A DNA stretch of 64,000 nt. It comes from Harmothoe impar. Taxonomy: Eukaryota > Annelida > Polychaeta > Phyllodocida > Polynoidae. A program made the position numbers and the translations under genes. This document shows positions 16,899 to 58,714 of the stretch, one piece after another (within the stretch, counting starts at the first letter, position 1; each line of letters opens with the position of its first letter). The stretch is taken from assembly GCA_947462335.1 (NCBI GenBank), contig OX381705.1, positions 46,762,175 through 46,826,174 of the forward strand, written 5' to 3'. Below the pieces are notes generated by a model. That model was given only the letters and a program-made list of their open reading frames with translations, had not been told where the DNA came from and searched no databases.

Positions 16899-17142
16899 TT
16901 ATTTGATAAGCATATTGCCAGCAGGGCCCATGTACGACCGCCGCGGGTCATACATGGTACCTTTGCCGTAGAAGCTGGGGTCAGTGTGGTTCTCCGGCTT
17001 GGAGGAAAAGGCTGAGTTGTAGGTACCGTGCCCAGCGTATGTTTCCTCGTCCATGCGAAGGCCATAGGCTGAGGCGTACACCCCTCCTCCCCCTGTAGTA
17101 TGTGGCACCCGCGGCCCCTGGGTCTTCTCCTGGTATCGCCGT
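16899..17142 (-). CDS. Last exon: cytoplasmic tail
   Basis: After acceptor TTTCACCAG the frame continues [15 protein letters not shown] and runs 80 residues to a TAA stop. The tail has a GGGG stretch and eight further Tyr, in contexts such as [33 protein letters not shown] and RRSYMGP. These are candidate phosphotyrosine docking sites (inference). There is no kinase or other catalytic domain and no hydrophobic PDZ-type C-terminus (it ends NMLIK). Confidence 0.88.
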
Positions 17143-20100
17143 CTGGTGAAAGACAAGGGAAGTAACATGGATGTAGTTCTACTAGCACTGCAAGGTAAAG
17201 GCAACGTGTATGATGCAGTGGAGACATACACAACTTCACTATGACATCATTTTGTAATCATTAATAAGTATAATATTTCACTTCAGCCACATGTTTATAA
17301 TATAAGCATGCGGCTGAAGTGAAATATTATACTTATTGTGAATGTTTTAGATATTATGTAAAACATTCATTGATCAGAAGTTAACTGTTGTCATCGATAT
17401 CGTTTTGCAATTGTAAGTGTTATAATCAAGTGTATTTAGTATTTTTTCTTCTAATGTTCTAGTAGCCTTGGCCAATGTTCACGAAAGACCGGGACAAAAG
17501 AGTCCTGTACTATATTGTTCTTGTATTATATGTCTGTAGCATGAATGATTTGAGCATTTGAAAGTGGTGTTTTCTATAACCCTAGGCTACCATGCAAAGA
17601 CGGTGCTATTTCTAGATCAAGATCAAAATCTTACCTGTGGCGATGACAGACTATTATAACAGCCAAGACCACGAGTACAAGAGCCACAGATCCACAAACG
17701 ATGCCAACTATCATAATCCAATCATCGTTCTGGAACACATAAAACAGGTATAATTATGATGATTATCGTATATCAAATAAACAGTATTTAACCTGTTATA
17801 TAATGGCATTGCACAGTAAAGATAAGCACGTTAATTTAATCAGGTGAATGAATAGTCCACATTGCAGCGCCAACTTTACTAACCGGTTTATTGAGATCCG
17901 TCACGTCACCCTCGAACAGGTTCTTGCCGTATTTCTTGAGGGCGTCCTTGAGGTCTTTCTCCGAGGGATCCACGAGGGCCGAGGACACACAGTAGCGCAC
18001 CTCGGAGACCACCATTCCCGAGGCCACGTCTCTCCTCTCGTTACTAACGTCAGAGATCTCTACGTCAATCTCATCTTCCGTGACGTCTGGGTTGGCCTTG
18101 ACGTAGCTCTCCTTAAGTGCCCGGATGATGGTGGCCTCTTCTGGCTTCTTGGTCTCCCCGAGGAGTCGGATGATGTTGCAGCGTTTAGGAGTGCAGCCAC
18201 AGCTGCTCACGCCGGCCGCCTTGCGCACCTCATCGTTCAGGATGTTGTCGGCAGGGATCGCCACAAACACGGGCTCCGGGTCTTGGCCGTCCACGGCCAC
18301 GCTGAACACCACAGGCGTCACGAACTGGCTGTAACGTTGACATAGGGGATGCATATTAATTAATGAAGGAACGCGGAAGCAGTTAAAGATTTAGAATGTC
18401 GTGGACGTTATAATTATACTGTGTAACGGGGATGGGGGGCTCCCTATCTGTTCTATACTCTCATTGTGCGAACAATGCCCCAACTATAATTTGGGGGTTC
18501 CAAGAAATCATCGGGCAACACACCCTAACTTTAGTAATATACAACAACATGAACGGCATGATGAATGCAACACAGAGAATATTCTCGTCTGCAAACAGTA
18601 GCACGTGATTGGTCTTTGATTGGCCATTAGAGTGTCGTCTGCACCCGCCGCCAAATGTACAACGTCACATAATTATGCCGCCTAATTGGCGCCATGCACC
18701 ACTGCACACTACAAGAAAATGTCTCCAGAGTTATAACTCTCGGCACATCCTTCTATATTCGCCCATCTATTTGGACAACCTCTGGAGGCACTCCACTAGT
18801 TACTTTAACTCACACTTCGAACATAATATCCACAAAGAGTAACATCTTACCCGTTTGGTCCAACAAACTCGGATTCCTGTAAGTGTTTGTCTCGGCGTTG
18901 TCGTCTCGGCACCAACGGTTTCACATTGACGCTAATCTTCCTCTCCTCAATATCTACGACAGGAGAATGGGAAGTCATATGACAGAGTTACAAACGGTTT
19001 ATAATTGCATGGTATGATGCACGTATAACGTCTCAAGCGTGTGATGTTTTAAACAATTTTACAAATATTTAGCTCGCATTCGATTAAGGATATTAGTAAA
19101 CCAGTTCATATGGAAAGCATTTTTGAGGGGTTCAATCCATGTACATCTGTAATTTAATAGTGCATAGTGTGTCGGCAACCGGGTCGGCTAAAAACACAGG
19201 CTCTCGTAAAGCATGATACATAATTATATATTCAAATCAATGTTATATGTGGATCGGCCTACCCAGATTGGCGCGTGCCCATGCCTTCTTAATGCCGCTG
19301 CTGATATACTCCAGTTTGGGCTTCATCTCTGTCTTAGATCCCGATAGGAAGAGCTGGTACTTCCGCTTGGCCTTGCAGCCGCACAGTTCCATCCGGCTAC
19401 GCGAGAGTCCGTCATTGACGTCCTCCTCTGACGGGATGACGGCGTTAAGGCCAGGCTCCCCTCCGTCAAACTTGATGGCGACACCGACACGCGTTACGTC
19501 CTTCCATTCAGTACTGACATAGTCGTGTGCTTTGGAAAAGATGGCTTTCACCGAGGCACCCACTGTGGATAGTGAAAAATGAGTACTTTTAATGTGGTGA
19601 GAGTATTATTTTGATGACAGTGCGAGGTTTACGCTTGGCTGTAAGTAGTATATGGAATCTGGAGAACTTGCCGGGTTTAACGCAGCAACCGTGGTAAGTA
19701 GTATAGGCAAATGGGACATATTGACGGGCTAAGAGTATTCAATACACTACCTCTGCATCGTGATTCGATGGTAAGTTGATTAAAATATTCAAGAAAGGGA
19801 CAAATTGTCTCGTTTTGTGATATCAGGAGTAACGGATGATGATTTCGAATCGTGTTGCTGTTGCCATGTACCTACAGATGACAACACCCCATGATACGTT
19901 TTTTTCCATTTTGAGTGCCCGAAAGAAAATACAACTGTACAAGTATAAGGGAACGTTCAACAATAACATCACTGCTATGGGGTGGGGGACCTTCTGCTCT
20001 GGCATACAAATTATAGGCCTACTAATTAAAACAGTGACAACGGGGTCCTGAAAATGTCCCAAAAACAGTGACATAATTGTTGAACACGATTAAAACACCT

Positions 20101-23100
20101 GATTAAAACACGATGGCCCTACCATTGGATGCTGCCCAGGTGGCCTGGACAGCCGTCTCCAGGGTGGCCTGCTGCGACTCGGCCAGCTGACCGCTCAGGT
20201 ACAGGTCCCTGACGGTAAGGACCGCCGACCTGTACACCTCCAGGGCGGCCGAGCTACGCAGCTCCGTCTCCAGCTCGTCTATAGAGGGGGCGAGCAGCTC
20301 CTCCACGGCAAAGGCCGCTCCAGCCGACTTGAGCTGGTAGTAGATCCTCGTCAGGGGCTCACTGTCGGGAGGTATAGGGAGAGGGGGAGTTATATGTGCA
20401 TTGAGGTAGAGTGAGCAGTTGACATCTAAATGGGGGGAATTAATTACGATATGATTATAATGCTTCCGGAGATACTACAAAAGATTTCATATTTAGTAAT
20501 AAAACTTACTAATACATTTATATTTAAAAAAAAAAGACAGTTATGATGTTAACTAAAATAATGCAGATAAAGAATGCCAGCTGTACAATATTGAGATCAT
20601 TAGATTTATGGAAGCCTAGAAAGTATCTGTATTGTATATACAATGTAGCCATATTTTAATAATAGATCTCTAGCTCGACTAACCTCTTGGCGAGTGACAC
20701 GAGGCTGGTTTGTCCTACTACAGCGTAGCTTACGGCCGTTAGGGTGGCGGCAGGTCCCCTGTTCCACACCGTCCTCACAGCACCCATCACCTGGAGGGCC
20801 ATCCCCTTGGTGGCATGCCCCTCTATGACCAGCGAGTAGGTGTTGTCCATGCGGATCGACACGTCTCCAGTGTACAAGATGACATCAGCCAGGCCAGTAG
20901 CATCCATGGCCCTCCTGAGCATGCTGCTACCCGGAGGAGGGCGGTCATCAGGGAAGGTGCCCCGTCCATTCACCTTCAGGTTGTATAACACCTTGGTGTG
21001 ACGAGAGCTGCAATAGTAAAGTGGACATTGGGGAAGGATTATGTAGTTGCAATCGTGAAATTTTTATACATGCTTAAATGCTGTTGTCAATTGGGAAGAT
21101 AGCAGTCCAATAGAATTCCAGCTTCTATTAATGAAATTGAAAAAAAAGACACACTCAAGGTATTGTATCTTACCCAAATGCTCCGAGATTGACTTCCACC
21201 TTGGTTAATCCGATGTCAATTTTAGTTGTTTCTGGATAAATAAGAAGAGTCACCGTTAATGTTGTATTTAAACAGGACAGGGGATTAAAAGTTATGACAT
21301 GGATACCGTTAATACTGAAGTAGGAATAGTCCTGTAAACGATTGAGGCCGTGTCTCATGAGATTGCAACAATTGAAACGTCTTTGACCGGTGTAGTCTTT
21401 GACCAGCACGTTTCAAAAGGGCTGAAATGGGGGCTATGTACACAGAAATGGAGGGGAAAGGTTAATGGATATGTTAACACTATATACAACAAACTTCCCA
21501 ACCTTTCTGTGTACATAGCCCCCATTTCAGCCCTTTTGAAACTTGCTGGTCAAAGACTACACCGGTCAAAGACTACACAGGTCAAAGACTTCACCCGCTT
21601 AAAGACGTTTCAATTGTTACAAACTCATGAGACACAGCCTTGAGATGTATGACATACTCTGTTACATGTACACATGTACACATTTTTATATGCAATTTAG
21701 CTTTCATGTATATACACCGTGTTTACCGGTAATTATAAATTATTGGGCCTAAATAGACAATTGAGAAAAGAGAAATGACAAAGTGTAATTGTACCTTCAA
21801 GGTCCTGCCAAACTGACTTGAGCACTGCTACAATGGGTTTAACACTGTCGTCATCATATACCCCTTGTACTGACACTGAATACTGCCTGGAGTAGAAGTT
21901 AAAGCTGTTTCCTCCAGTGAAGACCTTGTAGGTGGTGCCCGTCTGTGATGTGACCAGCAGCGACTTTACCATATCAGCGTTAGTAGGGGCGGCCACTGAC
22001 TGGGGTAATACTACCTCACCGCCCACCAACACGTAGTAGGTGATACCTGTTAACGTCTCCCTGCAATGGTGCATTCCATGTTTAGTCAACACCACATTTG
22101 GTTTGTACATAGATAGATTAATACTTGTTCATAAATGTGAACTGTGTTGTTCAGGGGTTGTTTATATTGGAGATGTGTTCATGATATATTTACGCAAGTT
22201 AAGGTCATGTCCGTTATGATATTAGAAGGGAAAGGGGATTTGGCTAGCGTAAACATATGTATTAGAATGTACGCCAAGAATAGTATACTACAAATGTAAA
22301 TATATAGCACCATATAACCTCATTATCAGCTTATTACATTCACATTTAATTCGGGTGTGTAAAAAAGGTAGAATGCCAAATAGGCGTATCGCAGTTCGCA
22401 GAATGCTTTCCCTGTACAATTAGCGGTACCGCACGTATGCCCCTCCAACTTGCAGGAGCTCCCCCAATATTAAGTGTATTTGATTAGCTTACTGTCGGTC
22501 TCCTATGAGCTCCTCCTTACTGATGGCTATTTCGACAGTCGCACCTGTTTAACACAGCAAATATTTTAATCAATTGAGAAGAAAGGTAGAATCATTAGGG
22601 AAGTTTTAACTTCTCATTTTTTAAGCGAAATGTCTGTGAGTAGTATGAGAAAATGGGGAAATATGTCGGGAACATGATGTTAGTAGTATAGGGATTGGGA
22701 CATTCTAGCGGGCTAAGATTTCATTACTTTACAAAATATATAGTAAGCAACACAACTGCAAATCAGGAGTAACAATAGATTATTCAAATCATAGACAGCT
22801 ATGCAGAGATACCATATCATAACTTCTACACAGAATTTTAGATTAAAACTCGATAATGCATCCATAAAACACGTGTCTCTAAAACACGTCACTTACTGGC
22901 AACAAATGTTCTCCAGATGGCTGTGAGAGATCCCTGGAAGGCGGGCACGTCGGCGGAGGCTATCTTGCCTTCTATGAAGACCATGTTGGAGAGGCGGAGG
23001 GCGCGGGCAGTGGTCAGGGTGGTAGTAGATACCACCTGATAAGGCAACTGAGCCGCAGTAAAACCAGCGGTAAGGGCATTCTTATCTAGTACTGCCTCCG

Positions 23101-47100: not shown

Positions 47101-50100
47101 TATGTGGCTCCAGAGGGGTCAAAAGCGACCTGGCGACCTGGACCGTTTTGATGGCGACTTTCGACCTAATGCAATAATAAAAGTGACCTGGCGACTTTTA
47201 GATAAAATTCACAGTACTTAAGGGGGTCCAAAAAAGCGACTTTGTGACCTGGGCCCCTTAATTTCGGCGACTTTCCGACCTGAGGGGGGGGGGACCCCTC
47301 TGCACCCCCATATATGGGGTTACTTACATACATCAGTCCTGTGGTAAGCATCCGTTAACTCAATAAGGATCTTCTCTCTGTCTTCCTTTGTGATTGATGT
47401 CTTGAGGTACACAGTGGTAGCCTGAGACATGGTCCTGACAGTCTTCACAGATACGGACGTCTCCACTGTAATGCCTGCCGACACCAGAACAGAAGAGGCC
47501 GCAACCTTCGTCTCCAACGTGGTCACGTCAATGTTGGCCACCTGCCTATAGTCTATGGTAGTGGACGAGCTTGTTCGGATGGAGAAGCCCACTTTGATCT
47601 TTGTTTCACTTTGAGAAGGGATTAACATAATGATCATATGAGTGGCAGTGAGTAAGAAAGTATACATGCAGGTCAGTTTAGAGTCTTTCGGAGTATTCCA
47701 ACTTAAGTGATCAGAAACTTGAAAAGCCTTTAGAAGTATGTGAGGTAAAGGATGAATTCTTCTGCTATGAAAACAATGCAGGCATCCACTCAGGTGTGGA
47801 TAACTCCCTGATACATAAATGTAGGCTTATCCGTATTTTATCACCTACCTTATGACATTATAAAGCATACCATAAGCCCAAAAGTAATATATCCCTGACG
47901 ATAAAAACGCCCTTGAAACCATATTTAACTAAATTGTGAGAAAAAGAGTTAAGCTCTAAAATAGCTGTTGATTCTTTCAGGTAATGTAACAAGTTTTAAA
48001 CATACCCAGTAGCCGTGATAACTTCCTCCTGTGACACTATCACAACACTGACACCCTGTGCAGCGAGCTCTGTGGTGAATAGAGTAATGTGATAATATCA
48101 TATTCAACGAGAACCTATCTGAACGCAATATGTACCAATATGGGACAACATTATAGACTTACATTTCTATCAATCCTATTGGAAGAAAAGCTGTTGTACA
48201 AAATACTGATACCGTGTGCCCAGCAGAAATACACGCCTTAATTTGACTGATCATTGCTTCGTAGAAATCGGACATACGCAGCATAACTGTACACATAATT
48301 GCAGACTTGTCAGCTGCATATCTGTAAACATAGCTTTAGGCAAAACCTACCAGGGTTAGCAGCTATTAAAGTGGCAGTCATGGCAGCTTCCATCTCAACC
48401 TTAGCTGCACCCTTGACAGACGTAGATATGATAGTGGTGGCTAGGCTCTTGGTCTCAATGGTAGTCATGGACGAGATGTCCACCACAGCAGTGGAGTAGG
48501 TCTTGGAGGTCCCAGTAATGGTGACTGAGGACAGGACAGAGGTGATCTTGGTCGTGCTGACCCGCAGCATAGTGAGTGATGACTGGATCTTCCCACCCAC
48601 CTTCACAGAGTACTGAATACGGGTGAAGCTCTGGCTGTAAAAGATAATACACACACATGCCTTATGGTTATTTGAGTGTCTTGAACTATGTTTTCTAGGG
48701 CTGCTCTAGGTTCTACAACTATACCAAGAGGAATTATTCAATATTATTTACCAAGACATCTTTGGATTCCTGTCAACGTTTAAACAATGATTGTGCCTGC
48801 AGATGGGTCAAAAGCGACCTGGAGACCCGGGCCGTTTTGGAGGCGACTTTCGACCTAAGGCAATAATAAAAGTGACCTAGCGACTTTTGGGCAAAAATGA
48901 CAATATGTTAAAAGGTCCAAAAAAGCGACTTTTTGACCTGGACCCCTTAATTTCGGCGACTTTCCGACCTCAGGGGGGGACCCCTCTGCACCCCCATGAT
49001 TGAAACTTCATATCAACCTTCCGCTTTTATCAAATACCTGACTAACTAAATATCCAATGACATCAAAACGTAGCAAATAAGAATCCCATCCACATACCCA
49101 AGTTCATTGACAACCTCAAACTGCCGTAGTATAGTCACAGACACGGTCTTGATATCCACGATACTGTGGGTTTCTGTGAAGGCAGTTACGATGGATGTCT
49201 GAACAGAGACCAGGTCCGACCTCTGTATCGATGTGCTCAGGGAGAAGGAGAAGAGTTCTGCCACCCTGAACTGGGCAGAAGCCACAGTCGTCTCTACAGC
49301 CTTTATGAGCACACCCTTGGCTGTCTTGATGCTGGCGGTGGAGAGCGCTGAGCTAATGGCTGTCCATTTGGCTGCCTTAATGTCCACTGAGCGGAACACC
49401 TTGGTCGCAGACGTTACAGAGAACAGCACGCTATAGCTGATAACCCTGTAAATCCATGGGAAAGTAACATTACAAAATGATATGCTAACATCTTTTATTC
49501 ATTCTGATATTAAGAGGATAGTTATCTACCAGTATTTGATATTTTATGTGCAGGACTGGTACCATATGGTATGATTTACCTAAATAGTTGGTCATTTACT
49601 ATTATAATCAATGCAATTACTTCATAAACAAGGCCCTCCTCTATGCCGAATTGAAGGATGGTGCAACATTCTAAAGAGTTATCGCAGTCAAGGTCCGAAT
49701 AGCCAAGTTGAATAGCTAACACATTTAGAATATATATATACTTATTAAAGCTAAAATTAGGAATGAACTATGTAATGGGTGTGGACCACCAAATTCGACA
49801 TGGCGACATGGCTTTTTCTTAAAATCGACAATCGACATGAGGCCTAGTGACATGCGACATGAGGCACAAAAAATTTAGTGACAGGCGACATGAGCAATTC
49901 TTAAAATCGACATGGGATATGGGCATTATTAAGCGACATTGACATGCGACATGGCCATTTTTTAAGATCGACAATTGACATGGTGACCCCCCATCCAGAG
50001 CCCCTATGTACATAATGATCGGATGACTCACCCCTTAACATCCACAAACTCCTCCTGGGTGATGACCTTTATGGAAGGCGTCTGCAGTCCAGATGCTGTG

Positions 50101-53100
50101 CCAATAACAGTCGTCATGGAGGACTCAAAGCTGCTGAATGAGCTGATGCTCATCTTCTGGTCAATTGTGGTACTGTGCAGCTCGGAGCGCTCAATGAGTA
50201 GCTCGGCAGACTGGGAGACTGAAATGACTGAGCTGTAGGAGGTCGAGGTGGTGGTACTGGAGGACATGGAGAAGGACAGAGAGGTGGTCAGCTCTGTGGT
50301 GGACAGCTTCTTCACAACCCTGGAGCTGATGACCGTAGTGCCCGACTTGACGAAGTAGAACACCTGGCGAGTGGTCACCCTGGAGGATGGAAAATGTAAG
50401 GTGATTATTATCATTCTACCCACGTATTCAAATGCAAAATTTATGCTGTAGCCTATGGAGTTGATGATCCGCCTAAATTAAGTTCATTTCCCATATCTAA
50501 TCTTTTTGAGTTTTACAGAAATTATGTATTGATTGAATAACTGTACCAGTGTTGATTGAGGTACAAAGAGGTTACCCCCCCGTGTTCTCAGTCAATTTGT
50601 AACAAATGTCTACATTATTGCATCAAACATTAACGGGAGTGTCATAATACTGGATCTACACACGAATTATTTTCAAGGAGCTAATTAGCAAGCTAAAGGC
50701 ACACATTACTAATTTAACTAGACCTACCCTGTAGCACTGAGCATCTCCGCCTGGCGCGCCACTGTCACCTTCAGATCAGTCATACTACTGAACTCTGTAC
50801 GAGTTTTTATAGTGGTCAGTATCTTGGATTCTAAGGTAGTGATATCGGAGCTCACGACTGCAACATCCAAGAAGAATGAGAATGATGAGGACACATCAAC
50901 CAGGGTTTTCATAACTGTTTTCTTTACGAACGTGTACCCTCCAACCTTGACCAGTTCTTTCTGGTTCAGTTCGACCATGACGTCTTCTGTGGAGATGGGT
51001 GCAATGATGGCGGGGTTGACCTGGGTCTCTCCTGACTTGATCTGCATCAGTACCTGAGTGAAGGTTGATCTGGAACAAGGTGTCAAACATTTATCAATAT
51101 CTCAGCAGGAACATCATAATTATTATCTGCTCGATATAAGAACCATAATACACATATCAGGAGAAACTAAAGTCTGTATGTTCATAACATGGCTCTTTAG
51201 TATATCAGCATATCACAAACACAATCCACTTCTTTTTTTTGGGGGGGGCGAGTTGGTAGTTATCAAATGGGAATTGGGCATTGGCTAATCCATGGTCTAT
51301 AACCCAGTTTCAATCTCATATTTGCGATAATTTATACTGGTATTTTAATGATATTCTTTCTAGTAAGGACAACCTTACCCCTCAGCACTGAACTGTTGTA
51401 CCATCTTGACAGATTTCACCTCCACTTTTGTTGTGATGATGACTGAAGTCTGAGAAGTGGTAGCTGGAGCAGAGGAAGAAAAAAAGTGGATTCAAAAAAC
51501 ATTTTAAGACATATTATACGAATCCATGGAAATAAAGTTCGCTGCACATTTATTCCATGCTTCATACATTGATTGCAAGCTCTTAAAGAATAAGATGCTG
51601 ATGATTTTATAATAGAAATCAATAACACCAACAACATAGTATGGCGACGAAAGATTTCTTTTCAAAACATAGTGTATCTTCGGGTATCAATGATAGTTAG
51701 GCAATACATAATTCGAAGTGAGATCTTTACTACATAACATGCCACAACAAAATGAGGAATTCTCCATACATGTTCAAAACGTAAAAAGGTAAAATGCACC
51801 ACAACCACAAACTATATTACGATTCACATGCACATTTGATTAGATCCGCACTGAAAGGCGATTGATGAAAATGCTACACCACTATGCAAAGCTTAAAATC
51901 ATTATGAATTACGCCTGTTATCAATTTTAGCCTGGTTAATGATTTGATTTGAACTGTGATAGTTTTAGTTGTGTTATGTAATGGGGTTCAGTTTATCTGG
52001 GAGGCTAATATTTGAAATCATTAAGTAATGCATTGTTTCTTGATCTTCATGATTCGTTCACATCTTATTGATATAGGCTTTCCATATGGTACATTGAAAT
52101 CTAAAATCAGTTTTAGTAAAAGTCTTGGTATGTCTTATGTTGCCTGGATAATCCCAACCTCAACGATGGACATGGAGTGCAAACGCAATGTTATTAGTAT
52201 ATTATACATGAAATTAATATGTTTTGCAATTTATTGATCAGCTCGATACCATGCAATTACCATGCATGAAGATATCGTGCTGTATTCACTCTGTTGTATT
52301 ATAGCATATTATATTTAATATGATCCATGGCCCACCTAGGTATATTATAACATTGACTTTTCCTGTCACCAACTATAACTCACCACGTTTTCGCCTTCTT
52401 CGTTTATCATTGTCGTCTAAAAGAATTATTAAAGTTCAGTGAGCTATGCATAAGACATTTACTGTTTATACCCGTGTTATCCTCATGACATCTATATAGA
52501 TAAATACTAAGTACTAGCACATATAATACAACATTATCTAAAGTTAGCGTATTAGTAATATGTAAAGCAGCCATTTATGTTTCCAAAGTCTTGGGAATTG
52601 CCTAATATACATCCTACTTGATATTATGAATGCACAGATGCAGCGGCCCAATAGGCTCAACAGCCACTGCATATAATTATTGTATACCCAAGCTATGATC
52701 TTATGACGTACTTACTATATGACTTGATCTACTGAATACAGCTCATAACAGCTCTAAATCATCACTCACATTCACCAGCAGTTGCTAAAGTCTAGCACTA
52801 TTCATGAAGATCAGAAACGCCGCATAGTACATTGTTGCAATATTCTTTTTGTCGTTATGATTGATGAATGCTGCGTTCGATCACTAGGGCTGCATTCATG
52901 CATCATGACGACCAAGGATATAACAATGACCTAAAGGGTCTAGTGCATTATGTCTAATATTAGGGCTGAAAGTTTATACTCACTGACAACAGACTGGACA
53001 GACTCGCTCAATGCCTTGGTATCAGCTTCCGAGAACTCGCCATCCACCGTTACAGAGGCACATTGGGACTTCCGTACTACCTGCGTCTCAGACGAGGAGG

Positions 53101-55786: not shown

Positions 55787-55880
<94 letters not shown>

Positions 55881-58714
55881 ATGTGTCTGTGAATAATGCT
55901 TAATCATTATTGATCATTTAAAGTATACTAATTCTTAATCAATTCTTAATCATGTAAAGATACCTACCGGTGCGCTGTGCTTTCCATGCTGCCACCAGGG
56001 CGGTCTGGAGGCTCTCCTTATCAGTTTCGGCCACCTGGGTGGTCAGCACTGAGTAGAAGAGGGTGTCCTCTCTGACCAGGGTGGAGGTCTCTGACGACTC
56101 CACCTTGAGGCTGTAGGACTGACCAGCCGGGTTAAGCACCTGCACGTCAGCCTGCAGGCGGGATGGCTCTAGGACAGGAATGGCCTGTGGGATGACAACC
56201 TTTCCACCGGCCATCACAATGTAACTCAGCTTGAACACAAAGTCCCTGTAACATAAAGCACCATTTGTATTATAAAATAGCATTATTTGCACGATGGGAT
56301 ATCATACATTGAACAATTTGCGAGAAGTTAATAATTCTCTAGGCAATTCTGCCCGTGTCTTTTACAATTGAAGGAGTCAATTTTAGCTGTGTCTGAATAC
56401 AAACATGGTGGCCAGTGGCGTAGGAAAAGGGGGGGCCAGGGGGGCCCGGGCCCCCCCAACCAGTGAGGAGGGGGGGCCTGAATATGTTTGGGCCCCCCCA
56501 AAATTTGTAAAATTTTGTAGACCTGTAATATAATACACACAATTTTCAACCCTTTACTCTCCCGCATAGGAAAAAGTGGGGGCAGAGGAGGCCAGGCCCC
56601 AAAATCAGACATAAAGGGAGCTCAAATACTACTTTTCCATACAATCTAATATAAGGATGTATATGAAACATCGTGCATAAAAACTGATACTTTAAGTTGG
56701 TTGGAGTGGGCCCCCCTTTGGCCCCCCCAATAAAGAGTTGCTTCCTACGCCTCTGGTGGGGCTTCAACCTAATTATAGGTGGGAGCTAGCCTGTTTTATC
56801 CATCTTTTATGTGCAGGGCCCGCGGCCGATACAATCAAGAGTGACACAACTTGCTACTGATAGCAATACATCATGAATCTATGCCTATGAATTAATTCAC
56901 ATACCCTGAAACTGACAGGGTCTTCTCCTGTTTGACCACCTTGACGGTCACCTCCTTTGTAACAGTAGCAGTGACCTTCTCCTTGATAATAGTAGTCAGC
57001 TTCTCCTCAAACTTCTCATAGTCAGTCTTAACCACCGTGCTATCCACGTACAGAGCCATGGTGTTCTCATACTGAATGAGCTTCGTCACCTTCCCAGAGA
57101 AGACCTCAAAGGCAACGCCATCTGGTCGAGTGAAGTCTATCTTACTCGAGAAGGTCTCCACACTAATCGTGTTCTCCACAGCGATGGAGGCATCCAGCTT
57201 GTTGATAAGATCTCCAGAGGTAATCGTCACTGTGTACAGGATGGTGGTTAGAAGTGTTCTGAAAAGGATCCACAGGATGCATGTATTGCATGGAGGTGCC
57301 CGTTCAGTGACTATCGTTGCATAAGCCCAAGTATAGTGAGTACCCCAGTGCCCATTTTCTTCGTAAAATTAGAGATACCATCGATAGTCATATATTGAGG
57401 TCATAGAGCCGACAACATTACTAGTCCCTTATATAAAATTGCAACTATCCTGTATCATTAATTGGCGCAGTCGTATTTGAACATATTATCTGATTCAAGG
57501 TACATACCCACTAGATGAGATCATCTCCCGACCTGTCCTCACCCTAACTTCTGTTGATGAATCCTTTAGGACTGTATAGAGGAAAGGAAAGTCATAGTAA
57601 CGTTTAAGCTGTTCAATTTCATGAATTACAATTATCTTTGAAGCGTGTATAGCGCTTGAAATATACTCTAACCAGAGGTTTCTTTAGTCCCCAGCTTAAT
57701 TTAAGGACAATAATTGAATCTGCGGTGATCAGAAACTACTAAATGGTGTAAGAGACTCAAATATCAAACACTATCAAAAGCATCTACCAGATGAAGGCCT
57801 TACTGTTAAGGTACCGCATTCACCTTCCAGGGTGTTTATTGTGGCGCATAATACAAACAACATACAAGGTATTATGTAATAGATAGACTATGCTTATGAG
57901 AAGTTAACTCAAAATAACCACAGTAAACTGGTATAGGATGCCTGCCACTCTATACTATATTTTGAGTTAGCCTCACATAACCATTGTCTATTTGTTTTAA
58001 ACCACAGCTGTAAGGTTATTTGAGTCGAAATGGAAATAACCACGGTATGAATTCTTTTGTCTTAGTCCCCGGCCGTGGTTTAAGTGGGTATTAAACTAGC
58101 ATTACCATCATTAGTCTCTAGAAGAGCTGCCTTGATTGACTTCTCAAACTTGGAGAACTCCTGCTTGGTGACCGACCCAGTGATGGTCTGTGTGAAACAC
58201 GAACTGACGGTAACTATTCCCCTCAGCAGTTTTATATCAGTGACGAAGTTGTAGGGCTCGCCGTTAGGCCTCACCAGGGCCCCTATGGTATCTGTTAGGA
58301 CTTCATTAGATGGGAAAACGCCCTGCAGTCGCCGAGCGTCCTCTCCTGTGCCATTGTTTATGATAGCGATGTAGAGCAGCGAGAATGTATTTCTGTTGGG
58401 GGGGAATATATGTAATGTAGATATACAGTATGAAGATAGATATTTTAAGTAAGGTCTATAGATGTGTGTCAAGTTAGTTTTGCTGCTGACAAAAAGTACA
58501 ATACACAACAATGTTATAAAAGGTGGCTCCAGAGGGGAAAAAAGCCACCTGGCCACCTGGACTGCTCTCCAGGCGATAGTTTAAGCGACCTGCCAACTTT
58601 TACACAAAATGTACTATATGATATAGGGTATAATGTAAGCTTAATGGTTGTTAAAATGAAACGCTCACCCCTTCATGTCAATGACCTCTTCGGAACCAAG
58701 GACTGTCGCAGAAG
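16899..58714 (-). CDS. Giant tandem-domain type I membrane protein, 3' part of a 46+ exon gene
   Basis: I do not recognise this family. Joining 46 GT-AG exons on the minus strand gives one open frame of about 3,208 residues, still open at the 5' side. It contains 27 complete and one partial copy of a 100-120 residue unit, then a transmembrane helix and a cytoplasmic tail. Each unit has segment A (an F/Y-x-Y-x-V-x-V-D-G-like start, a helix-like middle, an aromatic/acidic helix ending near A-W) and segment B (V-x-V-x-x-Q-E-E-x-hydrophobic, ending in Gly). Usually A and B are separate exons; nine units have them fused. The repeats are Ser/Thr-rich and nearly Cys-free. The predicted order beta-alpha-beta-beta-alpha-beta would suit a ferredoxin-like or SEA-like fold, but that is inference. 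Phase agrees at every junction, so the model is strong even though function is unknown. A cell-surface adhesion or recognition role is plausible only. Confidence 0.85.
17263..17337. repeat. 31 bp perfect inverted repeat in the last intron
   Basis: Arms 17263-17293 and 17307-17337 are reverse complements around a 13 bp AT-rich loop, starting AATAAGTATAATATTTCAC. This is a miniature inverted-repeat element or an RNA hairpin in the intron before the tail exon. Confidence 0.75.
17635..17729 (-). CDS. Transmembrane exon
   Basis: A 95 nt exon with acceptor TGTTCCAG and donor GTAAGA. It starts in phase 0 with NDDW, then a hydrophobic run of about 24 residues ([15 protein letters not shown] continuing VVLAVIIVC), then HRHR. 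The polar start and basic end give a single-pass helix with the repeats outside the cell. Confidence 0.93.
17884..18328 (-). CDS. Unit 28: membrane-proximal domain with C-terminal extension
   Basis: A 445 nt exon, phase 2 in and phase 0 out. It starts [16 protein letters not shown] and aligns with unit 27 over A and B, including the shared motif C-G-C-x-x-K-R (CGCTPKRC here) and a B-like strand [11 protein letters not shown]. About 55 further residues include another Cys (VRYCVSS) and a Lys-rich helix. It is the only unit with four Cys. The donor is GTTAGT. Confidence 0.83.
18851..19562 (-). CDS. Unit 26 B + unit 27: exon 19263-19562 and furin-site exon 18851-18953
   Basis: Exon 19263-19562 is phase 1 on both sides. 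It encodes the B segment of unit 26 ([16 protein letters not shown]) fused to unit 27 A ([14 protein letters not shown], then a CGCKAKRK motif). The following 103 nt exon starts with the B strand [11 protein letters not shown], then PRRQRRDK, a consensus furin-type site, and ends EFVGPNG. Cleavage here would cut the last B segment just before the membrane-proximal domain. Confidence 0.82.
20123..20361 (-). CDS. Unit 26: A exon
   Basis: A short A exon (239 nt) starting [17 protein letters not shown], with a Glu/Leu-rich helix-like middle and ending [13 protein letters not shown]. It is phase 2 in and phase 1 out. Its B segment is the first part of the next exon. Confidence 0.8.
20684..21007 (-). 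CDS. Unit 25: fused A+B exon, diverged
   Basis: A 324 nt exon, phase 2 on both sides. It starts [16 protein letters not shown] and has a Pro-rich loop (DDRPPPGSS). The end ([17 protein letters not shown]) is a diverged B segment. Confidence 0.8.
21174..22060 (-). CDS. Unit 24: exons A 21795-22060 and B 21174-21231
   Basis: A starts [16 protein letters not shown] and ends [14 protein letters not shown] encodes [17 protein letters not shown] 294 bp palindromic element lies in the intron between them. Confidence 0.84.
21346..21639. mobile_element. 294 bp palindromic element with TTGA duplication
   Basis: The arms are long reverse complements (left GTGTCTCATGAGATTG, right the matching CTCATGAGACAC), with most of the element forming the stem around about 21470. 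Flanks are TTGA at 21342-21345 and 21640-21643. Repeated GGTCAAAGACTACAC motifs lie in the right arm. It sits in a host intron. Confidence 0.78.
22493..23183 (-). CDS. Unit 23: exons A 22897-23183 and B 22493-22544
   Basis: A starts [17 protein letters not shown] and ends [16 protein letters not shown] encodes [14 protein letters not shown] and ends with a split Gln codon rather than Gly. Confidence 0.83.
23378..26320 (-). CDS. Units 21 and 22: one 608 nt exon (25713-26320) plus B exon 23378-23435
   Basis: The large exon encodes all of unit 21 ([14 protein letters not shown] to [16 protein letters not shown]) followed without an intron by segment A of unit 22 ([15 protein letters not shown] to [12 protein letters not shown]). 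The unit 22 B exon encodes [15 protein letters not shown] and lacks the usual Q-E-E. This is the only exon in the window that contains a whole unit plus the next A segment. Confidence 0.85.
23900..24740. repeat. Tandem array of ~132 bp units
   Basis: About five to six imperfect copies, each containing CATCTTGGCAGCCATCTTGG and CACACAAGGAAATCAGACAA. Starts of the same motif at 24424, 24557 and 24690 give a period near 132 bp. The frame is open across copies, but I treat that as a product of the repeat. It lies in the intron between exons 25713-26320 and 23378-23435. Confidence 0.8.
24200..24421. mobile_element. 222 bp element with perfect 17 bp inverted ends and TA duplication
   Basis: Ends CCGTAAATTCTCGCGTA and its reverse complement, flanked by TA. 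It interrupts a tandem array. Neighbouring copies read CCCTACTATCCATG where this one is split after CCCTACTA, giving an internal empty site. Repeated CGGCTTATA-like motifs lie inside. The TA duplication suggests a Tc1/mariner-type origin. Confidence 0.85.
24740..25020. repeat. Purine-rich GAGGGCAGAGGGAGGA tract
   Basis: About 280 bp of nearly pure G/A strand with irregular GAGGGCAGAGG repeats, directly after the 132 bp array. It is a candidate triplex- or G-quadruplex-forming sequence. Confidence 0.75.
25021..25712. other. Intron segment before the 608 nt exon
   Basis: Unique-looking sequence downstream of exon 25713-26320 and beside the purine tract. No repeat or exon seen. Confidence 0.4.
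26321..27380. other. 1.06 kb intron without recognised content
   Basis: Intron between the unit 20 exon and exon 25713-26320. AT-rich. Short TTATCATT / GATAACG words recur near 26,670-26,750. Nothing else is evident. Confidence 0.5.
27381..27707 (-). CDS. Unit 20: fused A+B exon after the DIRS insertion
   Basis: A 327 nt exon, phase 2 on both sides, starting [16 protein letters not shown] and ending [15 protein letters not shown]. Its donor joins directly to exon 25713-26320 in frame, replacing the usual split Gly with Leu. DIRS element 1 ends 86 bp upstream of its acceptor. Confidence 0.84.
27794..27925 (-). repeat. DIRS element 1 right terminal repeat
   Basis: The outer 96 bp (27794-27889) match 28078-28173 in reverse complement. 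The inner part (27883-27925) is the inverted copy of the left repeat. On the minus strand it contains GGTAAGTACTCG, a consensus splice-donor-like motif. Confidence 0.9.
28078..28211 (-). repeat. DIRS element 1 internal complementary region
   Basis: Positions 28078-28173 are complementary to the right outer end and 28172-28211 to the left outer end, overlapping by AA. In DIRS elements this region is thought to template the circular DNA junction used by the recombinase. Confidence 0.92.
28609..29730 (-). CDS. Tyrosine recombinase, DIRS element 1
   Basis: 373 codons. It integrates the circular DNA copy of the element. Visible catalytic motifs are the first Arg in SGQRGQ (about residue 197), H-x-x-R in AHSTRGAS (about 315), HGSW (about 340) and the nucleophile Tyr in AKHYNK (about 350). 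This is the R..HxxR..H..Y set of phage-integrase-type enzymes. The frame opens at a non-ATG codon and overlaps the RT frame by about 120 nt, so translation may start by recoding, reinitiation or from a spliced RNA. There are no internal stops. Confidence 0.93.
   Translation of the reverse strand: MVPSGLETGKGQFQGLPEERKPLRARRLTGKARPKGFAILRNDLIQNQGCDRETAEFLLESWSTGTQKVYETYMDQWATFCIIHRISLRSPSPFEVCRFLRLLSEKGRAFGTVNAARCALSVLVKNLDNGKTMGTHYWVCRAVRTAYRRNPPSPRYNKFWDIRLVFSMFQRWGANEGLSTQFLGFKLTMLILLVSGQRGQVIPALDLRNLTWLDSGSARFVLKGLMKTARTGEPLKELVLEPFHEEETLCVVCALKRYVRVTEPVRLDKEGRRKHSLFLSFRKPFGEIGQDSSKRWVLAVLSAAGVDTRVYRAHSTRGASTSAGGRLGVSTAVLLRHGSWKGAKTMAKHYNKPIENPKPPKTLARILLEDSIE
29610..31505 (-). CDS. Reverse transcriptase / RNase H with methyltransferase-like tail, DIRS element 1
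   Basis: 631 codons. RT motifs: SIDLKDAYY (first catalytic Asp), [20 protein letters not shown] (YxDD box), LEFLGFVID. RNase H acidic residues: DTDAS, NVLELRA, RTDNMTA, KADKASR. After these come [22 protein letters not shown] and YAFPPF, a region matching the Dam-like methyltransferase segment of DIRS polyproteins as I recall it. Its PP motif reads FPP, not the D/N/S-PP of active enzymes, so it may be inactive. The frame is -1 relative to Gag and has no ATG before the RT core. Confidence 0.93.
   Translation of the reverse strand: MCKHTETVLDFELTNTPENFYGGQTVDFLANWEKVTSDPWVLKNAAGIEIPLLKKPVQTHVPKPYALRDFDPIRIDAEIERMLNKGVIEKVEPEQDQWISSIFAKEKANGEIRIILDLSDFNKLIPYEHFKMDNLQTALELVRKDWYMASIDLKDAYYTFPISEQDRKFLKFVWGNELYQYRVIPNGVACAPRIFTKLLAPIFCKLREQGCEAFPYIDDTFIMGSSYEECLASTAKLAKIFDDLGLVIHPKKSVMTPSTTLEFLGFVIDTEQMNVSLPEKKVDKVLQETEQILGKTDLTIREVAGTVGLFNAYAKGVEYGMSHYKALERCKNKALKLSGGNYEASMTLSKEAVEDIRWWIHNVENNCCRIRNSLPDLSIDTDASMQGWGAYLGDHTIGGRWLPEEQDHINVLELRAINLALHSLGKVMNVHVHIRTDNMTALHYVSKMGGVKSPACDKVARFIWAWAEARQSWLTVSFVPGVLNIKADKASRVFNDNLEWKLNDRIYKRICNIWGNPQWDLFASRTNHKCERYCSWKPDPGASHVDSLTMSWEGINAYAFPPFSIIPRVLRKLEAEDPSKLVLVVPDWPGRAWYPRALKLAKASFKVYPRNANLLGRDDSLGRLALRVLRY
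31508..33262 (-). CDS. Gag-like protein with RS domain, DIRS element 1
   Basis: 584 codons from an ATG. Residues about 100-130 are acidic repeats ([12 protein letters not shown]). About residues 130-235 form a long Arg/Ser domain with repeated [11 protein letters not shown] units, as in SR splicing factors. The later half ([17 protein letters not shown], then [12 protein letters not shown]) is homologous to the Gag of DIRS element 2. The end is basic (Arg/Lys/Gly/Asn) and probably binds RNA. Placement first in the element and the basic tail support a Gag role. Confidence 0.85.
   Translation of the reverse strand: MKGKTPLKVKTLPQQSDILKNLIAKALEEVKIPQTPFMHTRAKVHASPRASTSKEKGKPDPPKTDSQNGDESEANSEGTPPNKVKLFPIFTKMPEELGQKTDSNEGESEDEGESEDEGESEDEVVEERPYKRARARSRSRSRRRSRTRSNSHRRRSRSRRRSHSRGRSHSRRRSHRSRSRSRSVRRRSRSRSARRRSRSRSARRRSRSRSARRRSRSRSRSRSVRRHRSKSRSREKSRARTKTPEKERAKAKPKGPPKLVKEKPRNPVISESEDGFGHEADEEAEGSQAESEDSEVERAKKVKEKLKGVKDGAFADKAAGILTYKDGPPSSKKAHKTLAAIVERFTQTALPDKENESMKKRKLIPPPKNVSAMRIPPIDAGPLTELNNKGNKNALALDGHMVNAQEAIMAGLTAFLPTLEIMINRGEQKDPELNEAAASAVDGIEMLVLANNCIVRKRREMLRPFLIQDYTKAIMESPMGGATLFAEAKKVVEKCKEDIEFTQSIMRAKGRSNNRNRNTKSKKDFQKRGGYKKKRRQGDERRSGKENRHQDERRDKRRQDDGKNRDSGASRGRGRGTSRGNRRK
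33263..34552 (-). other. DIRS element 1 untranslated leader
   Basis: 1.29 kb between the left terminal repeat and the Gag ATG. Apart from the three direct repeats I see no ORF of note. It probably contains the element promoter. Confidence 0.6.
33365..33634 (-). repeat. Three direct repeats in the DIRS element 1 leader
   Basis: A 26-28 bp sequence with core TTTTCGGCATAAGGTAT occurs at 33365-33391, 33511-33538 and 33607-33634 (third copy GGGCATAAGG). Copies 2 and 3 share a preceding AATGCCT. They lie between the left terminal repeat and the Gag start and could be RNA packaging or promoter elements (inference). Confidence 0.75.
34553..34627 (-). repeat. DIRS element 1 left terminal repeat
   Basis: The outer 40 bp (34588-34627) match 28172-28211 in reverse complement. 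The inner part (34553-34597) is an inverted copy of 27883-27925 at the other end, including GTGACGTCACTTCCGGTAG with a CRE-like TGACGTCA palindrome. Confidence 0.9.
34706..35292 (-). CDS. Unit 19: exons A 35012-35292 and B 34706-34763
   Basis: A starts [16 protein letters not shown] and ends [15 protein letters not shown] encodes [16 protein letters not shown]. The next intron contains DIRS element 1, beginning 78 bp past this B donor. Confidence 0.83.
35738..36312 (-). CDS. Unit 18: exons A 36047-36312 and B 35738-35798
   Basis: A starts [17 protein letters not shown] and ends [15 protein letters not shown] encodes [16 protein letters not shown]. Frame is kept at both joins. Confidence 0.85.
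36626..36689. repeat. Palindromic hairpin in an intron
   Basis: Arms starting CTGGCGGACAAATGACTAG and ending CTCGTCATTTATCCGCCAG pair with few mismatches around TTTT/AATATT. It may be a miniature transposon remnant. Confidence 0.65.
36784..37107 (-). CDS. Unit 17: fused A+B exon
   Basis: A 324 nt exon, phase 2 on both sides, starting [15 protein letters not shown] and ending [15 protein letters not shown]. Confidence 0.85.
37282..39278 (-). CDS. Unit 16: exons A 38995-39278 and B 37282-37345
   Basis: A starts [18 protein letters not shown] encodes [16 protein letters not shown]. The 1.65 kb intron between them holds two minisatellites in opposite orientation and a C-rich inverted-repeat element. 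Confidence 0.85.
37520..38080. repeat. Degenerate ~20 bp repeats around copy 1 of the TTA element
   Basis: Words such as TAGGCACCCTGCCC, TAGGCCCCCTG and ACGTCCACAACCCTC recur on both sides of 37603-37923, suggesting that a minisatellite was split by the insertion. Confidence 0.6.
37603..37923. mobile_element. Inverted-repeat element with C-tracts, TTA duplication (copy 1)
   Basis: 321 bp with terminal inverted repeats GGGAGTGATCATTTTT followed by AACAACAGGGGGG-like sequence, flanked by TTA at 37600-37602 and 37924-37926. Inside are many homopolymer C or G tracts and GCGCGC runs. A TTA duplication with G-rich ends fits PIF/Harbinger-type elements (inference). No transposase is encoded. Confidence 0.82.
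38090..38460. repeat. Minisatellite CTCACGTCCAACCCC (about 15 bp)
   Basis: About 25 copies of a unit around CCTCACGTCCAACCC on the plus strand, in the intron between the exons of unit 16. It is followed by the same core in reverse complement. Confidence 0.9.
38500..38945. repeat. Minisatellite GGACGTGAGGAGATGGTAGT (about 20 bp)
   Basis: About 22 copies sharing the core TGGACGTGAGG, which is the reverse complement of the core of the preceding array. The two arrays face each other and could pair. Confidence 0.9.
39686..40211 (-). CDS. Unit 15: exons A 39940-40211 and B 39686-39737
   Basis: A starts [16 protein letters not shown], diverged from the usual start, and contains one Cys (AIICPDF). 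Its later part ([16 protein letters not shown]) is typical. B encodes [15 protein letters not shown]. The two exon starts of units 15 and 16 (QTVY, QTVF) are alike. Confidence 0.82.
40485..40673. mobile_element. Small non-autonomous element, family G (copy a)
   Basis: It starts TGTGGCTCCAGAGGGG and ends ACCCCTCTGCACCCCC, with internal GCGACCTGGCGACCTGG-like motifs. It is homologous to copies at 47105, 48794 and 58523. The flanks AACATG and AATATG resemble a short target duplication. Confidence 0.75.
40685..41023 (-). CDS. Unit 14: fused A+B exon
   Basis: A 339 nt exon, phase 2 on both sides, starting [15 protein letters not shown] and ending [16 protein letters not shown] transposon copy sits 12 bp downstream of its donor. 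Confidence 0.85.
41321..45914 (-). CDS. Unit 13: exons A 45646-45914 and B 41321-41381
   Basis: A starts [16 protein letters not shown] encodes [17 protein letters not shown]. They are separated by a 4.26 kb intron, the longest one without a DIRS insertion, which contains the 1.84 kb minisatellite of 16 bp units. The B acceptor (TTTAAG) is weak. Frame still agrees on both sides. Confidence 0.72.
41840..43680. repeat. Minisatellite, 16 bp unit, about 115 copies
   Basis: The unit is CGGGATAAACGGAGAA with variants (GGGAGAAAGGGAGAAC, GGGCTAAACGGAGAAC). It starts nearly perfect and becomes heterogeneous, with higher-order blocks. It fills 1.84 kb of the intron between the two exons of unit 13. 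Apparent ORFs inside it are frames of the repeat. Confidence 0.95.
43690..45560. other. Rest of the long unit 13 intron
   Basis: Between the minisatellite and the unit 13 A exon. It holds AAATCGGTTTTGGGGGC direct repeats (43780-43855), short CAGCCACCTGCT repeats (about 44,005-44,070) and the 94 bp inverted-repeat element. I see no convincing exon; small ORFs lack supporting splice context. Confidence 0.5.
44290..44383. mobile_element. 94 bp miniature inverted-repeat element
   Basis: Ends AACCCTTTGAGGCC and GGCCTTAAAGGGTT are near-perfect reverse complements, next to TTA or TA on each side. It is very short and non-coding. Confidence 0.65.
46044..46356. mobile_element. Inverted-repeat element with C-tracts, TTA duplication (copy 2, opposite orientation)
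   Basis: 313 bp, the same element as 37603-37923 but inverted, flanked by TTA at 46041-46043 and 46357-46359. It has inserted into a CGACATG-repeat sequence, which resumes after it (GTGACATGGG). Confidence 0.82.
46730..47608 (-). CDS. Unit 12: exons A 47328-47608 and B 46730-46787
   Basis: A starts [15 protein letters not shown] after the acceptor CTCAAAG. B encodes [17 protein letters not shown] short inverted-repeat transposon copy ends 18 bp downstream of the A donor. Confidence 0.82.
47105..47309. mobile_element. Small non-autonomous element, family G (copy b)
   Basis: 205 bp, flanked by the 7 bp repeat ATATATG on both sides. Imperfect inverted ends: CCAGAGGGGTC left, GACCCCTCTGCACCCCC right. 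Same orientation as the other copies. Confidence 0.8.
48006..48634 (-). CDS. Unit 11: exons A 48351-48634 and B 48006-48069
   Basis: A starts [17 protein letters not shown] encodes [16 protein letters not shown]. Donors are GTAGGT and GTATGT. Phases are as in the other split units. Confidence 0.85.
48794..48995. mobile_element. Small non-autonomous element, family G (copy c)
   Basis: 202 bp, flanked by the 7 bp repeat ATGATTG on both sides. The left end is diverged (TGCCTGCAGATGGGTC); the interior is very similar to copy b. Confidence 0.8.
49098..49445 (-). CDS. Unit 10: fused A+B exon
   Basis: A 348 nt exon, phase 2 on both sides, starting [16 protein letters not shown] and ending [16 protein letters not shown]. 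It is the third fused exon in a row after units 8 and 9, so these three may have arisen by duplication of one fused exon. Confidence 0.85.
49785..50003. repeat. CGACATG-rich dispersed repeat
   Basis: Repeated CGACATG, AAAATCGAC and TGACATG words over about 220 bp, starting AAATTCGACATGGCGACATGG. The same start occurs at about 46,007, where the TTA-flanked element interrupts it. Confidence 0.65.
50032..50379 (-). CDS. Unit 9: fused A+B exon, very Ser/Thr-rich
   Basis: A 348 nt exon, phase 2 on both sides, starting [13 protein letters not shown] and ending [14 protein letters not shown]. It is the clearest example of the B consensus. The middle is dominated by Ser and Thr, which suggests O-glycosylation (inference). 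Confidence 0.87.
50728..51069 (-). CDS. Unit 8: fused A+B exon
   Basis: A 342 nt exon, phase 2 on both sides. It starts [17 protein letters not shown] and ends in the B motif [16 protein letters not shown]. No intron separates A from B. Confidence 0.85.
51379..53261 (-). CDS. Unit 7: A 52984-53261, basic micro-exon 52384-52416, B 51379-51463
   Basis: A starts [16 protein letters not shown]. Between A and B lies a 33 nt exon with TTTTAG acceptor and GTGAGT donor. It is phase 1 on both sides and encodes [10 protein letters not shown], followed by Ala from the join. That is a strong furin-type cleavage motif. Because the micro-exon is symmetric, skipping it would keep frame and remove the site. 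The B exon is long for its class (85 nt) and ends [14 protein letters not shown]. Confidence 0.78.
52853..52916. repeat. Imperfect hairpin GATGAATGCTGC / GGCTGCATTCATGCATC
   Basis: Short inverted repeat in the intron near unit 7. A related motif (GATGCATGAATGTAGC) occurs near 9,486, so it may be a dispersed repeat. Confidence 0.45.
53449..54052 (-). CDS. Unit 6: exons A 53790-54052 and B 53449-53515
   Basis: A starts [17 protein letters not shown], a clear copy of the unit start. B encodes [18 protein letters not shown]. The A donor is GTAGGA. All joins keep frame. Confidence 0.85.
54610..55258 (-). CDS. Unit 5: exons A 54981-55258 and B 54610-54676
   Basis: A starts [15 protein letters not shown] and is rich in Ser/Thr in its second half. 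B encodes [19 protein letters not shown]. Phases are 2/1 and 1/2 as in the other split units. Confidence 0.85.
55478..56245 (-). CDS. Unit 4: exons A 55968-56245 and B 55478-55544
   Basis: A starts [16 protein letters not shown] and ends [15 protein letters not shown] encodes [17 protein letters not shown]. The 423 bp intron between them contains a long AT dinucleotide run. Confidence 0.85.
55790..55877. repeat. (AT)n microsatellite
   Basis: About 88 bp of uninterrupted TA repeats in the unit 4 intron. Confidence 0.95.
56413..56755. mobile_element. Inverted-repeat element with CAGTGGCGTAGGAA ends
   Basis: 343 bp. Left end CAGTGGCGTAGGAA, right end TTCCTACGCCTCTG. The ends carry GGGCCCCCCC tracts. 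It lies in the intron between units 3 and 4. No ORF for a transposase. Flanking GTGG may be part of the duplication. Confidence 0.75.
56905..57258 (-). CDS. Unit 3: fused A+B exon
   Basis: One 354 nt exon carries both segments, from [12 protein letters not shown] to the B motif [14 protein letters not shown]. It begins and ends in phase 2, so it has the same outer phases as a split unit. The A/B intron is absent. Confidence 0.85.
57508..58392 (-). CDS. Unit 2: exons A 58106-58392 and B 57508-57571
   Basis: The A exon follows CCCCAACAG and ends at a weak donor (GTAATG). It encodes [13 protein letters not shown] near its start and [14 protein letters not shown] near its end. The B exon encodes [15 protein letters not shown]. 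Both joins keep frame. Confidence 0.8.
58523..58612. mobile_element. Small non-autonomous element, family G (copy d, truncated)
   Basis: Only the left part is present (GTGGCTCCAGAGGGG, then CCACCTGGCCACCTGG). The right end is missing. Confidence 0.65.
58669..58714 (-). CDS. Unit 1 (partial): short B exon
   Basis: A 46 nt exon between TTTCTAG and GTGAGC, phase 1 in and phase 2 out, encoding the B motif [12 protein letters not shown]. It is the most upstream exon in the window. Its A exon must lie beyond the second DIRS element, whose end is only 45 bp upstream of this exon. Confidence 0.75.

Follow-up and report, generated by a model that had tools for sequence, protein, structure and literature searches.

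The genome of the polychaete Harmothoe impar holds, within a stretch of 64,000 nucleotides (contig OX381705.1 of assembly GCA_947462335.1, positions 46,762,175 to 46,826,174 of the forward strand; C2:46762175-46826174 of the assembly as searched; hereafter the window), a minus-strand gene for a giant protein that, as judged from its exons, is assembled from about 30 diverged copies of one domain. We put at roughly 0.55 the probability that this gene encodes a membrane-tethered mucin-like protein on the MUC16 plan, with a mucin head, a rod of tandem SEA-like domains, one helix and a short tail. An earlier note on this DNA, made from the sequence without database searches, had described a cell-surface protein, anchored in the membrane and made of many copies of a single domain that could be matched to no named family, and our analysis supports that description. 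The gene is truncated by the window end and continues upstream. Genome searches were made in the 1.51-Gb assembly, which comprises 736 contigs.

Exon chain, repeat array and membrane anchor

The curated gene model runs on the minus strand from position 58714 to position 16899 of the window and joins 45 exons (9,596 nt) into 3,197 amino acids, with no frame break across the 3,197 codons and with the terminal stop codon as the sole stop. All 44 introns have GT-AG borders. Some repeat units are encoded by fused AB exons and others by separate A and B exons, and the introns follow a rule in which A/B boundaries are in phase 1 and unit boundaries in phase 2. This rule, which we derived from unit exons read singly, fits 42 of the 44 introns, and the two that depart from it are those flanking the transmembrane exon (phase 0 before, phase 2 after). 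Because several B exons, like the end exons, were chosen by eye with the rule in hand, the agreement is partly circular, whereas the open frame and the GT-AG borders are not. A naive splice predictor placed extra exons in introns and retroelements, and these were removed by hand. The earlier note had proposed a chain of 46 exons and about 3,208 residues; the continuous open chain stands, but the curated count is 45 exons and 3,197 residues, the surplus 11 residues being those of a 33-bp exon at 52416-52384 (minus) that is probably the 46th exon of that note. This phase 1-1 cassette lies in the intron of unit 6, has fair splice signals and would add a basic furin-like stretch, and we keep it as an unproven option because it ranks second of five in-frame cassette candidates in 32,220 intron bases.

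Within the window the array counts 27 complete units, each 100-121 residues long, and ends beside the membrane in a half unit of 44 residues; the boundaries at units 20/21, 25/26 and 27/28 were placed by eye. A unit profile, started from 13 seed units and iterated over the reading frames of the window, matched 25 stretches in 24 frames in its last round, all of them on the minus strand; the best plus-strand match of the first round had an E of 0.84. When each unit was scored with a leave-one-out profile of the other 26, every one of the 27 outscored the best of its own 100 shuffles, although the margins were narrow for unit 24 (8.1 vs 6.1 bits), unit 26 (4.2 vs 1.8) and unit 27 (9.0 vs 5.0). 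The array of 28 copies, 27 of them complete, that had been read earlier is thus recovered, and the V-D-G start and Q-E-E...G end assigned to the unit are both retained in the consensus, which starts with V-D-G, contains a helix like S-D-x-x-x-F-E-x-A-L-x-A-A-W and ends on Q-E-E. Pairwise identity among the units has a mean of 16.7 % and a maximum of 28.6 %; it drops the further apart two units stand in the chain (Spearman -0.26), and adjacent units are slightly more alike than others (0.180 vs 0.165, permutation 0.033), a pattern of divergence that fits old tandem duplication.

The array is followed by a single hydrophobic stretch in the transmembrane exon (17729-17635, phase 0 to 2), a basic stretch at the end of that exon, and a short tail with eight tyrosines by hand count, encoded together with the stop codon by the last exon (17142-16899). 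These two exons hold the transmembrane helix and Tyr-rich tail of the original description, the helix being predicted by reading the sequence, and read in the same way the protein has the single C-terminal helix and short cytoplasmic tail of a transmembrane mucin. The outer part in the window (3,085 residues) is 22 % Ser+Thr and contains 11 Cys and two N-glycosylation sequons, against a mean of 14.2 sequons in 2,000 shuffles, the lowest of which had four; the shuffling does not preserve local order, yet the gap is large. Sequons are nearly absent from this Ser/Thr-rich membrane ectodomain. Close to the end of unit 26, in the B exon 18953-18851, lies a basic R-R-Q-R-R stretch, at which cleavage would be a matter of speculation.

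Domain identity, predicted fold and comparison with MUC16

Sequence searches gave the unit no name. Pfam returned no credible match for any unit; 0 of 25 units matched PF01390 (SEA) at E <=10 (16 of those as A exon only, units 26 and 27 being covered by frame scans), and a Pfam search with the consensus of the 27 units gave no SEA match. The earlier reading, in which the repeat could be matched to no named domain family, is borne out, and a strong hidden Markov model match to a well-described domain, which would have spoken against it, was looked for in Pfam and did not appear. The suggested search of protein databases yielded no relative in three forms: with the full-length model none of 2,611 scored candidates reached E <=0.001, with the unit alignment none of 1,863 reached E <=1, and with the last 498 residues none of 8,000 reached E <=10. 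These nulls do not make the gene an orphan, because the animal share of that database is not established. Each of two sequence-profile searches of the PDB returned two chance-level matches, and tblastn of one unit against phages returned none. A search of the genome itself with PF01390 gave one match, on C14, and a SEA-like exon from the same genome (L019) found no SEA chain by profile in the PDB either. Searches of the open-licence literature showed no report of such a gene among the papers listed.

Structure prediction of single units, also proposed earlier, gave a divided answer. The first AlphaFold model (predicted template-modelling score, pTM, 0.48) has the ferredoxin/SEA order incomplete. 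By contrast, the model of unit 16 (pTM 0.76, predicted local distance difference test 83.1) has strands at residues 2-12, 46-50, 62-66 and 94-105 and helices at 27-34 and 72-87, a predicted beta-alpha-beta-beta-alpha-beta arrangement that corresponds to the ferredoxin/SEA order. Foldseek ranked 6v55 first among 350,542 chains, a weak match (E 0.038, probability 0.44) in which the unit model aligned, by VIA, over residues 401-508; by our own residue assignment from the accessible part of the text of PMC6954182, these residues should be the 105-residue SEA domain of Gpr126. The structural matches as a whole fall in a broad fold class and none is decisive. Solved SEA chains of MUC1, MUC16 and Notch were not among the matches listed, which excludes nothing, and among viral models Foldseek found nothing at <=0.001. 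The domain that the earlier note called new-looking thus remains without a named sequence family but is probably not a new fold, in view of the order found in one of the two models. To our knowledge, other ferredoxin-like domains (IS200 transposases, HMA, PII-like) do not occur as tandem arrays at a membrane. Divergent SEA domains have reportedly been studied by Pei and Grishin.

In one of the two models the unit is predicted to share the beta-alpha-beta-beta-alpha-beta order of SEA (PF01390) and of the SEA-like domains of Notch, Gpr126 and EpCAM. Unlike SEA, the units have no recurrent G-S-V-V-V-like autoproteolytic motif: a loose scan for this motif, which the cleaved SEA subset carries between strands 2 and 3, gave two matches in 3,085 residues, differently placed in two units. 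By alignment, the basic sites of the present protein also lie outside the strand 2/3 loop, in which SEA domains are cut according to the accessible part of PMC6954182. In the portion of PMC6586460 open to us, SEA domains are described as having low sequence conservation over one fold, and the SEA-like domain of Notch is likewise without a G-S-V-V-V-like motif.

According to the available sections of PMC4046138, MUC16 starts with an N-terminal region, continues with as many as 60 repeats, every one of which has a SEA domain, and closes with a C-terminal part; so many SEA domains are described there as unique among mammalian mucins; the accessible part of PMC1552070 gives human MUC16 as the only mucin known in 2006 to have multiple SEA domains. 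The Harmothoe protein is like MUC16 (CA125) in its giant type I plan, in which a putative large N-terminal region precedes many domains in tandem, a single helix and a short tail; in one of two models the order predicted for the domain fold agrees as well. To the tens of tandem repeats of ~120-156 residues in MUC16 correspond, SEA identity apart, the 27 units of the window and two upstream. The two conserved Cys of each MUC16 repeat (PMC4046138, same sections) are absent here, however, and whereas those repeats are called homologous, the present units have the low mean identity given above, almost no N-glycosylation sites and no Pfam SEA match. Because paired Cys and a Pfam SEA match are lacking and N-glycan sites are few, we give the domain no name and assign the family neither to SEA nor to MUC16.

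Upstream exons, duplicated exons and intron contents

The 70 kb upstream on the same chromosome were joined to the window for the unit search. Two further units match the profile there (1.2e-7 and 3.2e-7; the 27-unit profile gives them 5.7e-8 and 4.1e-4), and a third, which precedes these two, was read from exon phases alone, without a profile match. Ahead of the upstream units stand three Thr/Ser/Pro-rich exons: one of 129 codons (43 % Thr+Ser+Pro), which is a 36-bp tandem repeat, one of 290 codons (49 %), which is a 48-bp tandem repeat, and one of 74 codons (50 %). By their sequence these exons are mucin-like. They lie on the strand of the gene with phase 1-1 ends and compatible phases, and strand and phase together suggest that they are part of the same transcript as the units. 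The two extra units and the mucin-like exons all fall within 24 kb upstream of the window end. Transposon-like frames that splice prediction also put out in this region are not claimed for the gene. A strict scan of ~64 kb upstream for a signal peptide had no hit, and a relaxed scan of the same region gave 52 start candidates and six start-donor pairs, none convincing; the gene start was not found in this ~64 kb, and in the next 60 kb the search covered units and Thr-rich frames.

Searches of the genome with units 20-21 (two matches), unit 3 (three at E <=10) and the exon of unit 27 and the half unit (one) found matches inside this gene only. As searches for paralogues these are weak: unit 3 recovered only 2 of the 26 other units, an equally diverged paralogue would be missed, and it was the profile, not these searches, that detected a second copy of the unit 15 exon at a distance of 110 kb. 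The tail exon had ten other matches with E 0.25 or worse, and the three that were read (L031-L033) are among transposon-like frames. The copied exon belongs to an inverted duplicate of ~0.9 kb, 95.5 % identical and ~110 kb away (L022 5476-6380, plus, against window 38959-39853), which holds the unit 14 B and unit 15 A exons, has the same flanking minisatellites and occurs at two genome places in all. The coding part differs at 2 of 336 bp, with the A-exon protein unchanged by eye, while 559 non-coding bp show 16 substitutions (hand count, a few beside an indel) in addition to indels; the contrast (Fisher p 0.024), one small comparison, hints at selective constraint on the duplicated exons.

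On the minus strand of the window the chain opens with the B exon 58669-58714 (phases 1 to 2), which encodes the final strand of a unit; the A exon of that unit lies outside the window among the upstream exons (L009 ~1819-1482, minus). Fused AB exons encode unit 2 (56905-57258), unit 7 (50728-51069), unit 8 (50032-50379), unit 9 (49098-49445), unit 13 (40685-41023), unit 16 (36784-37107, the unit of the second structure model), unit 19 (27381-27707) and unit 24 (20684-21007). Separate A and B exons, given in this order, encode unit 1 (58392-58106, 57571-57508), unit 3 (56245-55968, 55544-55478), unit 4 (55258-54981, 54676-54610), unit 5 (54052-53790, 53515-53449), unit 6 (53261-52984, 51463-51379), unit 10 (48634-48351, 48069-48006), unit 11 (47608-47328, 46787-46730), unit 12 (45914-45646, 41381-41321), unit 14 (40211-39940, 39737-39686), unit 15 (39278-38995, 37345-37282), unit 17 (36312-36047, 35798-35738), unit 18 (35292-35012, 34763-34706), unit 22 (23183-22897, 22544-22493) and unit 23 (22060-21795, 21231-21174). 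Units 20 and 21 share one A+B+A exon (26320-25713) followed by a B exon (23435-23378); units 25 and 26 are made of an A exon (20361-20123), a fused B+A exon (19562-19263) and the B exon that carries the basic stretch; and unit 27 with the juxtamembrane half unit occupies 17884-18328.

Several introns hold elements of their own. Between units 18 and 19 lies a minus-strand retroelement (28609-33262), which we take to be DIRS-like; its frames include a reverse transcriptase (PF00078, E 1.3e-22) and show a weak integrase-like match that stays below the cut-off. A second, similar element (59452-62642, minus), with reverse-transcriptase-like and recombinase-like frames recognised by eye, lies in the intron at the 5' window end of the gene. 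A short intronic repeat at 21340-21640 resembles a miniature inverted-repeat transposable element, matches in both orientations and draws most of the at least 144 genome matches of a 2-kb query (40 of 2,593 candidates scored). The intron of unit 12 contains a long minisatellite with strong skew (41830-43678, ~118 copies of a 16-bp unit). Rfam gave no match at gathering scores, and a tRNA search found none.

Proposed tethered mucin and rival readings

On the MUC16 plan the product would be a type I membrane protein of giant size that carries a Thr/Ser/Pro-rich mucin-like head on ~30 tandem SEA-like (ferredoxin-like) domains, followed by the helix and the short Tyr-rich tail. The rod would keep an O-glycosylated head far from the membrane, the head on its rod may form or space the glycocalyx and set adhesion, and the tail may connect to the cytoskeleton or to signalling. 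O-glycosylation, an extended shape, a role as barrier or in adhesion and any cleavage are what we infer for such a protein. By analogy, the protein would compare most closely in function with MUC16 and other tethered mucins, and less with a receptor for recognition, a preference that we hold because of the ferredoxin/SEA order in one model and the mucin-like exons upstream. We regard as tentative, and on the doubtful side, a further proposal that a MUC16-like tethered mucin arose independently in this lineage from an undescribed domain family, without disulfides and with N-glycosylation avoided, giving a bare protein rod under a glycosylated head.

Several observations weigh against the tethered mucin. 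Retroelement-like frames sit between the mucin-like exons, the acceptor of the 290-codon exon scores weakly (2.0), and only two of the three exons were picked by the splice predictor; moreover, there is no SEA match by sequence, and the structural matches point to a broad fold class without a decisive member. The last two points would also suit a ferredoxin-like domain unrelated to SEA in a receptor for cell adhesion or recognition, with partners bound by the diverged units and signals passed on by the Tyr tail, a role with which the strong divergence of the units (mean identity 16.7 %) and the eight tail tyrosines (hand count) are also consistent. The mucin-like exons upstream nonetheless favour the mucin plan, and the best Foldseek match is a chain aligned at its SEA domain, so that we judge such a receptor rather unlikely. 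Composition could be read in still another way, since two sequons against a shuffled mean of 14.2 and 11 Cys in 3,085 residues would agree with a structural rod or matrix filament (of egg coat, cuticle, cilia or shell surface) that takes no part in signalling and whose few N-glycan sites reflect tight side-by-side packing; but the gene has a transmembrane helix and a tail, which are unusual in a pure matrix protein, and a filament of this kind seems improbable to us. Finally, the large introns with retroelements and minisatellites, the weak matches of units 24, 26 and 27 and the choice of some exons with the phase rule in hand might indicate that the chain merges exons of at least two genes or that the gene is decaying. 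A chain that stays open and in frame through 3,197 codons, with GT-AG borders at 44 of 44 introns, one phase rule through the array and one tail, argues otherwise, as does the constraint hinted at by the exon duplicate, and we give this last explanation very little credence.

If the tethered-mucin reading is true, a plan of the MUC16 type built from a domain missed by the sequence profiles used here would suggest that the plan has more than one origin, or that its age far exceeds what such profiles show. The gene would also offer a family of ~30 natural variants of a single compact domain, nearly free of Cys and N-glycan sites, that may be useful for learning what a glycocalyx rod needs.
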